Below are positions 18,352-24,662 of a stretch of DNA of 64,000 nucleotides, one piece after another. Location of the stretch: NCBI RefSeq assembly GCF_002573715.1, contig NZ_PDHM01000017.1, positions 372,001-436,000 of the forward strand, given 5' to 3'. Made by a program: the position numbers and the translations under genes. The DNA comes from Paenibacillus sp. EZ-K15. GTDB lineage: Bacteria > Bacillota > Bacilli > Paenibacillales > Paenibacillaceae. How positions within the stretch are numbered: the first letter of the stretch is position 1; each line of letters opens with the position of its first letter. The notes beneath the pieces were generated by a model that saw only the letters and a list, made by a program, of their open reading frames with translations, had not been told where the DNA came from and did no database searches.

Positions 18352-18456
18352 AAAAAACGCGCCGGACCTCATGGTCCCGCGCGCTGGATATGCGGCAGGG
18401 AGGCCAACGCGAACAGCGTTAGCCCACCCTGTAGAATGACAGGCGTGCTAACGCTG
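18352..18456 (-). promoter_or_regulatory. ribosome-mediated transcription attenuator of hisS
   Basis: On the minus strand, the end of the His leader peptide overlaps segment 1 CAGCGTTAGC (18456-18447). It pairs perfectly with segment 2 GCTAACGCTG (18423-18414), with an inner CCTGT/ACAGG helix. Segment 2 can instead pair with segment 3: GGCTAACGC (18424-18416) with GCGTTGGCC (18410-18402), extended by CAGGG/CCCTG. Segment 3 CGCGTTGG (18411-18404) can also pair with CCAGCGCG (18387-18380). That pairing would break the left arm of the terminator hairpin CGCGC-G-GGACC/GGTCC-G-GCGCG (18383-18358), which is followed by TTTTTT (18357-18352). The set fits a switch in which stalling at His codons favours readthrough. 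Confidence 0.72.
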
Positions 18457-18495
18457 CTTGTGATGATGAAGTTGATTGAATTTAATGTTTATCAT
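18448..18495 (-). CDS. His leader peptide, MINIKFNQLHHHKQR
   Basis: This 15-codon frame has ATG 18495-18493 and an AAGGGGA site 8 nt upstream (18503-18509). It carries three consecutive His codons (CAT-CAT-CAC) at positions 10-12 and ends TAG inside segment 1 of the attenuator. The position of the His codons just before the first hairpin arm is what a ribosome-stalling sensor of charged tRNA(His) needs. Translation has not been shown. Confidence 0.7.
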   Translation of the reverse strand: MINIKFNQLHHHKQR

Positions 18496-18518
18496 ATTTG
18501 TATCCCCTTCACCTTTTT

Positions 18519-18545
18519 TAGCCAGTGATTAAAGCCAGTGATTAA
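18519..18545 (-). repeat. 13-bp direct duplication in the hisS leader
   Basis: TTAATCACTGGCT occurs twice in tandem on the minus strand just downstream of the predicted transcription start and upstream of the leader-peptide RBS. Its role is unknown. It may be a slippage duplication or part of a 5' structure. Confidence 0.55.
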
Positions 18546-18550
18546 GGGGG

Positions 18551-18579
18551 ATTATAGCGCAATCCATTTATTAATTCAA
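18551..18579 (-). promoter_or_regulatory. promoter of hisS
   Basis: The minus strand has -35 TTGAAT (18579-18574), a 17-bp spacer and -10 TATAAT (18556-18551). The start site is predicted near 18544. This places about 220 nt of leader before the ATG, starting just before the duplicated 13-mer. The promoter lies just beyond the katE stop codon. Confidence 0.75.
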
Positions 18580-23511: not shown

Positions 23512-23901
23512 TTAATCCACTTTGGCACGATATGCCTCTGAGGTGAGCAGCTTTCCGAGTGCTTCCTCCAGGTCACCTTCCACCTCAACCTCAATGATCC
23601 ATCCGCCTTCGTACGGCTCTCCGTTCACAAGCTCCGGCTGATCTTCCAGGGAAGTATTCACTTTCGTGATGGTACCGGATACAGGGGAATACAGTTCCGA
23701 TACGGTTTTGACCGACTCAATGGTACCGATGCTGTCACCTGCGGCAACGACAGCGCCCGCCTCGGGGAGTTCTACGAATACGATATCGCCCAGCTGGCAT
23801 TGCGCATGATCAGAAATACCGACGCGCACCACATTTCCATCTACCTTCAACGCCCACTCATGATCGTCGCTGTACACCAAATTCTCTCTGATTTCACTCA
23901 T
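23512..23901 (-). CDS. gcvH: glycine cleavage system H protein
   Basis: This 129-residue lipoyl carrier of the glycine cleavage complex shuttles the aminomethyl group from the P protein to the T and L proteins. The lipoylation lysine is Lys65 in GTIESVKTVSELYSPVSG. The N-terminal VYSDDHEWALKVDGNVVRVGIS and C-terminal YEGGWIIEVEVE match the family, and the length is normal. It is transcribed away from gcvT-gcvPA-gcvPB under its own tandem glycine riboswitch, so glycine is expected to induce both arms. Confidence 0.96.
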   Translation of the reverse strand: MSEIRENLVYSDDHEWALKVDGNVVRVGISDHAQCQLGDIVFVELPEAGAVVAAGDSIGTIESVKTVSELYSPVSGTITKVNTSLEDQPELVNGEPYEGGWIIEVEVEGDLEEALGKLLTSEAYRAKVD

Positions 23902-23950: not shown

Positions 23951-24190
23951 AAAAAAAGGACGCGAAAAAAGGCATTCGCCTTCTCTCTGTCCTCGGTACC
24001 TGAGAGTTTATGATCGACCGCTGCTTGTTTTCGGTTCGACCTTTCCCCTTGGGTGGCTTGCGCACTCTCCAGAGCTGCGTCAGATGGCGGTTCGTTTACC
24101 TGAGAGATTACTCGTCAGCCTGGCAGGCGTAACGGTTTGCTCCTTCGGTGCCGCCAAGGCTTCAACCTTCGCGTGGCGGTCTCTCCCATC
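23951..24190 (-). promoter_or_regulatory. tandem glycine riboswitch with terminator, upstream of gcvH
   Basis: The minus strand carries two glycine aptamers. The first (about 24190-24095) opens GGGAGAGACCGCC and closes AATCTCTCAGGTAAA. The second (about 24078-23982) opens CTCTGGAGAGTG and closes AACTCTCAGGTACCGAGGACAGAG. The expression platform is a hairpin from GGAC (23992) through AGAAGGC-GAAT-GCCTTTTTT to GTCC (23958), followed by seven T (23957-23951). Part of the hairpin overlaps the 3' end of aptamer 2. Glycine binding should prevent termination. Confidence 0.9.
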
Positions 24191-24228
24191 CATCATCATC
24201 CGCATATTCGGTTGGCTTATTCTCCCAC

Positions 24229-24337: not shown

Positions 24338-24389
24338 AATCACAAGAACGTAGAAAGATCTGACAACTCAATAATTTTCACGCGGATGA

Positions 24390-24662
24390 TGGTAGCGGGA
24401 GAGATTACCGACAAGATTGACAGGTAGCGCCGAAGGAGTAAGCCCTAACACGGTGAATCTCTCAGGCAAAAGGACCTTTACCGGACGCACCTCTGGAGAG
24501 AATTCTGAATGTAGAATCACCCACGGGGAAACTCACACACGCTTGACATTATACTTACATGACATGTGGGGTAACTCTCAGGTACCAAGGACAGAGCAGA
24601 AGGATTACGCAACGAGCGGGCTTTTTCAGCGCAGCTTGTTTTCCTTCTGTCTGTCCTTTTTT
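24390..24662 (+). promoter_or_regulatory. tandem glycine riboswitch with terminator, upstream of gcvT
   Basis: Aptamer 1 (about 24392-24480) runs from GCGGGAGAGATTACCG to AATCTCTCAGGCAAAAGGAC. Aptamer 2 (about 24490-24597) runs from CTCTGGAGAGAATTC to AACTCTCAGGTACCAAGGACAGAG. The terminator stem pairs GGACAGAGCAGAAGGA (24589-24604) with TCCTTCTGTCTGTCC (24642-24656), followed by six T. Its 5' arm uses the 3' end of aptamer 2, so ligand binding and termination compete. Confidence 0.92.

Follow-up and report, generated by a model that had tools for sequence, protein, structure and literature searches.

Attenuation of the enterobacterial his operon (leader family RF00514) follows the B:C / D:E logic and makes use of tandem His codons. 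In 2010 Naville and Gautheret reported that in bacilli hisZ and the hisS paralogue hisS* are preceded by short open reading frames (ORFs) with a stretch of His codons, which argued for a His leader peptide; the hisS of Bacillus has a T-box (PMC2965389, as excerpted). In 2022 His attenuators were described before the his operons of the B. cereus group, Peptostreptococcaceae and Erysipelotrichales, and in the excerpts of that paper Paenibacillus is placed under HisR and not under attenuators (PMC9413887). A Cys leader peptide, uORFC-8-2, precedes cysS in Rhodobacterales (PMC8632094, excerpt).

We analyzed a window of 64,000 nucleotides of Paenibacillus DNA in which a leader with His codons and a terminator stand before a second histidyl-tRNA synthetase gene (hisS*). 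With the enterobacterial his leader the element shares the B:C / D:E logic and the tandem His codons; it differs in that nothing like segment A was seen, that RF00514 does not match and that the target is a synthetase gene. It is most like the system of 2010, in which a short ORF with a His run and a terminator also precede a hisS paralogue in Bacilli, the main hisS having a T-box; however, the text of PMC2965389 names Bacillus, with no occurrence of Paenibacillus, and the leaders there precede both hisS* and hisZ, whereas here only the hisS* locus matched the element strongly, so that hisZ was dropped as a target of the same leader. The systems of 2022 likewise combine His leader, attenuator, antiterminator and terminator in Firmicutes, but what they control are his operons (PMC9413887, excerpts). 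In uORFC-8-2, too, a tRNA synthetase gene stands under a leader with the codons of its own amino acid, but the amino acid is Cys and the hosts are Alphaproteobacteria (PMC8632094, excerpt).

A sequence-only reading of the window had implied that the element is new. This has to be toned down because His leaders before hisS* and hisZ were already predicted in the excerpted part of PMC2965389: the element is a well-supported new member of the kind predicted in 2010 and not new in kind. The covariation reported below supports that prediction, namely that Firmicutes employ leader-peptide attenuation alongside T-boxes, a single cell having both for its two genes of one enzyme. Possibly new are the drift of the control codons from His to Tyr or Phe with at least one His kept, in several lineages; the presence of the cassette before a Nudix hydrolase and an orphan gene, with three copies in one genome; and that no protector segment was seen, hence a gene that should be on if leader translation fails. 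In the open-licence literature we found no paper pointing to a Paenibacillus hisS leader, a Nudix association or mixed His/Tyr leaders.

The leader region and its gene

All elements are encoded on the minus strand (Table 1), among them a promoter-like site, described as a promoter in the sequence-only reading, and the 15-codon leader with three consecutive His codons that was also described there. The promoter-like site is weak taken alone, shuffles giving 0.6 on average. Segment 1 and the 18423-18414 part of segment 2 are perfect complements, forming ten Watson-Crick pairs. The 2:3 hairpin extends over 18431-18396 and shares segment 2 with 1:2; the two are therefore mutually exclusive, as had been claimed. 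From the ATG to the U run (18495-18352) the RNA folds at −58.1 kcal/mol (z −5.41 against dinucleotide shuffles, 0 of 200 being as low), and 30 bases separate the end of the terminator from the hisS* start codon.

Table 1. Elements of the hisS* leader region, in window coordinates.
Feature	Position	Strand	Basis
Promoter-like TTGAAT-17-TATAAT	18551..18579	-	sequence match, 10/12 consensus positions
Shine-Dalgarno-like AAGGTGAAGGGG of leader	18504..18515	-	sequence
Leader peptide ORF MINIKFNQLHHHKQR, 15 codons, ATG 18495 to TAG 18450-18448	18448..18495	-	sequence; kept in 61/62 genus orthologues
Three His control codons CAT CAT CAC	18460..18468	-	sequence; codon composition across family
Segment 1 (like B of the enterobacterial his leader), overlapping the stop codon	18447..18456	-	folding; helix 99.5% of cells paired
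Segment 2 (like C), partner of segment 1 or segment 3	18414..18431	-	folding and covariation
Segment 3 (like D), partner of segment 2 or terminator left arm	18396..18411	-	folding and covariation
CCUGC, 5' strand of best-kept antiterminator pairing	18395..18399	-	465/465 cells paired with 18380-18376 partner
Segment 4, terminator left arm and antiterminator 3' strand	18376..18385	-	folding, alignment
Intrinsic terminator with U run	18352..18385	-	folding, alignment; stem 18385-18356, U run ending 18352
Second histidyl-tRNA synthetase hisS* (PRK12420 type), 427 aa	17038..18321	-	NF009085 profile, Pfam

That the leader precedes a hisS was right in that the gene encodes a histidyl-tRNA synthetase; more exactly, it is a second hisS, of the PRK12420 type. 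The product scores 601 bits against NF009085 (PRK12420, histidine--tRNA ligase; cutoff 540) and has the Pfam matches tRNA-synt_His and HGTP_anticodon. Among proteins of solved structure it is closest to 6nhi and to entries listed as 'Histidine--tRNA ligase, cytoplasmic' (E 7e-56 to 2e-51); 1adj and 1htt, which we take to be the HisRS of Thermus and of E. coli, gave E 1e-30 and 1e-26.

The genome has two more HisRS-like loci, 26 and 27% identical. Upstream of L002, presumed to be the main hisS, lies a full-length T-box (L002 1077-1350; RF00230, 77.2 bits, E 6e-17), which is under the Rfam gathering score of 93 and was therefore missed by a scan at that threshold. At L003, presumably the hisZ locus (named from similarity), no Rfam family was found at the gathering score, in a scan to which the T-box of L002 was equally invisible. 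A second leader copy in the genome was rejected, the next match, L066 (E 0.0025), showing no leader ORF. Since L002, taken for the main hisS, has its own T-box, the gene in the window is regarded as the second hisS, as in the Bacillus case (PMC2965389, as excerpted). The L002 T-box serves the presumed main gene of the same enzyme; unlike the leader, it reads the tRNA directly and without a peptide.

Conservation of the leader and covariation of its helices

A close orthologue of hisS* (best E < 1e-100) is present in 62 of 100 genus genomes, among them that of the window, and 61 of these 62 have the leader; 50 leaders with a His run were picked out by a script, and reading the remaining 12 added 11, in which Tyr or Phe codons are mixed among the His codons. 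The sole orthologue without a leader is L040. Being kept to this extent, the leader is not a chance ORF. Sixty leaders were aligned, L024 being left out because of its deviating segment 1, GCGTCAGC, which is matched by a compensated segment 2. In all 60 there is an in-frame start codon with a Shine-Dalgarno-like match. The pairings are almost fully kept in the genus set, with too little variation for a test; no two-sided change was seen in 2:3 in this set alone.

At E 0.01 a covariance model built from the 60 leaders found matches in 93 of 245 family genomes and in 29 of 398 class genomes, numbers in which the genus, weak hits and hits lacking a leader are counted. Six Paenibacillus loci from a protein search (P. 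glycanilyticus, P. tritici, P. sinopodophylli, P. oceani, P. methanolicus and one uncultured) all match at E 2e-31 or better. From the fetched loci with E under 1e-14 a wide alignment (A4) of 93 leaders was made. It includes 31 of the 62 genus loci, the others having been dropped as near-copies, as were L086, L116, L128, L129, L131, L138, L148, L151 and L164 from other genera; L170 and L175, which passed by score, were excluded for having no visible leader, and L087, L088, L094, L097 and L177 for low scores. Cytobacillus, Perspicuibacillus, Viridibacillus and Pseudalkalibacillus likewise have leaders with a His run in front of hisS*. Of eight more distant hisS* loci, five match model R1 weakly (E 7.5e-6 to 0.014). 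For L186 (Cytobacillus) and L087 (a genome of the class) folding gives a strong hairpin and a terminator (z −7.60 and −4.54).

The A4 alignment demonstrates covariation of both alternative helices. For 1:2, its top stem and the terminator taken together, 95.1% of 2138 cells are paired, with two-sided changes in 10 of 23 pairs; slid controls pair in 23-45%. The 64 two-sided cells compare with a shuffle mean of 15.0, and 0 of 500 shuffles were as high, a count that leans toward the structure because the alignment was fitted to it. The 2:3 helix was absent from the model with which the sequences were aligned. It pairs in 91.7% of 1106 cells, 24 of which carry two-sided changes, a count that none of 500 shuffles reached (12.1 in shuffles); only 4 of its pairs show a two-sided change in the wide set, a number reached by 38 of 500 shuffles.

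The sequence-only reading had further proposed that 18411-18404 pairs with 18387-18380 as antiterminator. These eight pairs, one of them G-U, exist, and in folding of growing window transcripts they form first, as an intermediate, followed by CCUGC (18399-18395) with GCGGG (18380-18376). In the 93 leaders, however, the earlier pairing is found in 93.9% of 558 cells, 499 of 500 shuffles pairing as well or better, and no two-sided change occurs in it in either the genus set or the 93-leader set. The compensatory changes looked for are thus present in 1:2 and 2:3 and absent from this third pairing. CCUGC with GC(A/G)GG, the family form, is constant: all 465 of 465 cells are paired, as compared with 20-64% in slid versions. 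With one two-sided change in 93 leaders, and with its shuffles paired in 99.8% of cells, the score reflects constancy and not strong covariation. In L080, segment 3 has A in place of G, and the partner base in each of segments 2 and 4 has changed accordingly from C to U. Alignment column 151, which belongs to the terminator's left arm, holds A or G in every one of the 93 leaders and can always pair with U130, yet is mismatched inside the terminator in 60 of the 93, which suggests that the antiterminator constrains it. Pairing constancy, L080 and column 151 led us to locate the antiterminator core at 18399-18395 with 18380-18376, the pairing best kept in relatives; that of the sequence-only reading is the weaker of the two.

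Control codons and downstream genes in relatives

The control codons were read in the frame fixed by segment 1. The three positions in 93 rows (n = 279) hold His 227 times, Tyr 36, Phe 12, Arg 2, Ile 1 and Cys 1. The conservation expected of the His run was found in so far as His occurs among the last eight residues of every row (93/93), just once in 11 of them. An in-frame ATG or GTG with an upstream Shine-Dalgarno-like match is present in 91 of 93 leaders; in L174 the leader stops one codon earlier and in L158 its frame is broken. On a tree of 71 HisS* proteins, the distribution of all-His and Tyr/Phe leaders needs 8 changes, of which at least 4 are forced by supported branches. (L117 was too short for the trees, L153 and L145 were removed as long branches in a second run, and the states of L080 and L164 were assigned by hand.) A natural series of control codons from His to Tyr and Phe is available in the family. 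The bias from His to Tyr is probably in part mutational, since CAY to UAY is a single transition. A reading in which queuosine-tRNA links the His and Tyr codons was dropped because Phe does not fit it.

By a tblastn recount, hisS* is the downstream gene of 71 of the 93 leaders, and 22 precede another gene. In 11 this is a Nudix hydrolase (one was scanned and is Pfam NUDIX, the others being 70-94% identical to that one) and in 3 an orphan small protein (L120, L163, L172); those of L120 and L163 have no Pfam match, and the third, L172, is 44% identical. Three leaders (L150, L161, L162), with the codons Tyr-Tyr-His-Phe, stand before what on reading is a degenerate relative of HisRS, one such protein having E 7e-4 to PRK12420 and no Pfam match; two (L156, L159) precede HisRS remnants, also by reading, and one a putative N-acetyltransferase (Acetyltransf_2). 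For L079 and L124 no clear call could be made. At L079 a His leader attenuator without hisS* is followed by a tiny ORF, a terminator-like hairpin and an ABC-F gene; the latter was rejected as target because, by reading, this second hairpin intervenes.

A search of 148 family genomes for the Nudix gene gave orthologues in 19 (E 1e-30). The leader attenuator is intact in 7 of these and reduced to terminator remnants (by reading) in 4; none was seen in the other 8. In L261, L263, L270 and L276 the attenuator before the Nudix gene has apparently decayed, the terminator being kept and the leader peptide gone. Genome G510 has three copies of the cassette, before hisS*, the Nudix gene and the orphan gene. 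Together with the series of control codons, the occurrence of the same switch before genes outside histidine metabolism makes it testable what a leader attenuator senses.

The proposed switch and competing explanations

A ribosome covers about 15 bases downstream of its P site. By this footprint a ribosome that has the first His codon in its A site would reach to about 18456, the start of segment 1, and one at the stop codon to about 18438, with all of segment 1 covered. In the window the terminator has an equilibrium probability of 0.04 as long as the RNA from 18456 onward is free and of about 1.0 once segment 1 is covered; a ribosome edge at 18453, three bases on from 18456, is enough to raise it to 0.94. 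Given the value of 0.04 without any ribosome, the window leader is predicted to read through by default. With segment 1 covered, 91 of the 93 leaders have a terminator probability above 0.9; with segment 1 free it is under 0.5 in only 41, and in 2 when segment 1 is shuffled. Locking 1:2 brings it under 0.5 in 46 of 93, as compared with 0 of 93 when segment 1 is covered. Since the equilibrium switch is thus limited to about half of the relatives, in the other half the order in which the RNA folds while being transcribed would have to decide. Folding of truncated transcripts was passed by 14 of 93 leaders with a pairing range that included the linker and is uninformative, and by 20 of 93 with a narrower range.

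The locus has a translatable short ORF with tandem cognate codons and mutually exclusive hairpins, one ending in the terminator, with compensatory changes in 1:2 and 2:3, as is expected of an attenuator. We consider it very probable that a ribosome-mediated His transcription attenuator controls the second hisS gene. The positions of the ribosome, the order of folding, the response to histidine and the readthrough that we infer would be as follows. When His-tRNA is charged, the leading ribosome would reach the TAG and cover segment 1; 2:3 would then form and the terminator would stop transcription. When His-tRNA is scarce, the ribosome would stall on the first of the His codons, its edge not quite reaching segment 1, so that 1:2 could form while it is being transcribed; segment 3, left free, would hold the left arm of the terminator, and hisS* would be transcribed. 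If the leader carries no ribosome, 1:2 should form as well and the gene be on. The B:C / D:E logic recognized in the sequence-only reading fits this scheme, except that nothing like segment A was seen and that its antiterminator is the weaker of the two pairings: a 6-base complement of segment 1 occurs in 0 of 93 leaders within the approximately 40 aligned upstream bases. With no protector segment seen, failed leader translation should leave the gene on. The apparent absence of the segment predicts that a start-codon mutant is on; in the enterobacterial his leader such a mutant behaves in the opposite way.

Between 18300 and 18620 neither the T-box (RF00230) nor the His leader (RF00514) model matches even at E 10; membership in RF00514 is thus ruled out, and the absence of a T-box claimed in the sequence-only reading was borne out. 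It is extremely improbable that the locus is a degenerate or partial T-box which responds to uncharged tRNA-His and in which AGGGTGGG is a remnant of the antiterminator bulge. Such a remnant would be in keeping with the full-length T-box of the other hisS of the genome, whose score is below 93, and with that of the Bacillus hisS (PMC2965389, excerpt), but besides the failed match, AGGGTGGG is part of segment 2 and sits within the 2:3 hairpin, which covaries, and the 5' part, where Stem I would be, is filled by the leader ORF. Hardly less improbable is a constitutive terminator next to a chance ORF, without any regulation. That the equilibrium favors the terminator in both states in about half of the relatives would agree with it; the covariation of mutually exclusive helices and the conservation of the codons and of the 3:4 pairing speak against it.

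More weight is due to explanations that keep the switch and change its signal. His and Tyr/Phe share an aminotransferase in Bacilli, and the leader could sense the supply of His plus Tyr/Phe, the all-His version of the window being one end of a range. We think this unlikely: 48 of 52 replacements of control codons are Tyr or Phe and the changes of type on the HisS* tree recur, but part of the bias is probably mutational and the window leader has only His. Somewhat less likely still is that the leader senses stalling in general (by antibiotics, the nascent chain or loss of initiation), the His/Tyr/Phe run being slow or prone to stalling. The default readthrough of the untranslated window leader, the missing complement of segment 1, the replacement of His by Tyr/Phe in several lineages and the cassette before the Nudix hydrolase, the orphan gene and once the putative N-acetyltransferase would all suit such a sensor; yet every one of the 93 rows has retained a His codon, and 71 of the 93 leaders precede hisS* itself. 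A wider proposal, which we put forward tentatively and with the balance somewhat against it, is that Paenibacillaceae-type bacteria possess a portable cassette with His/Tyr/Phe codon drift and default readthrough that was recruited to unrelated genes (Nudix, orphan, possibly N-acetyltransferase) and forms a small regulon responsive to stalling at His or aromatic codons.

Elsewhere in the window there are glycine riboswitch matches at 24078-24199 on the minus strand (one) and at 24386-24596 on the plus strand (two in tandem). The match on the minus strand lies upstream of an ORF (23512-23901) named GcvH-like by eye.
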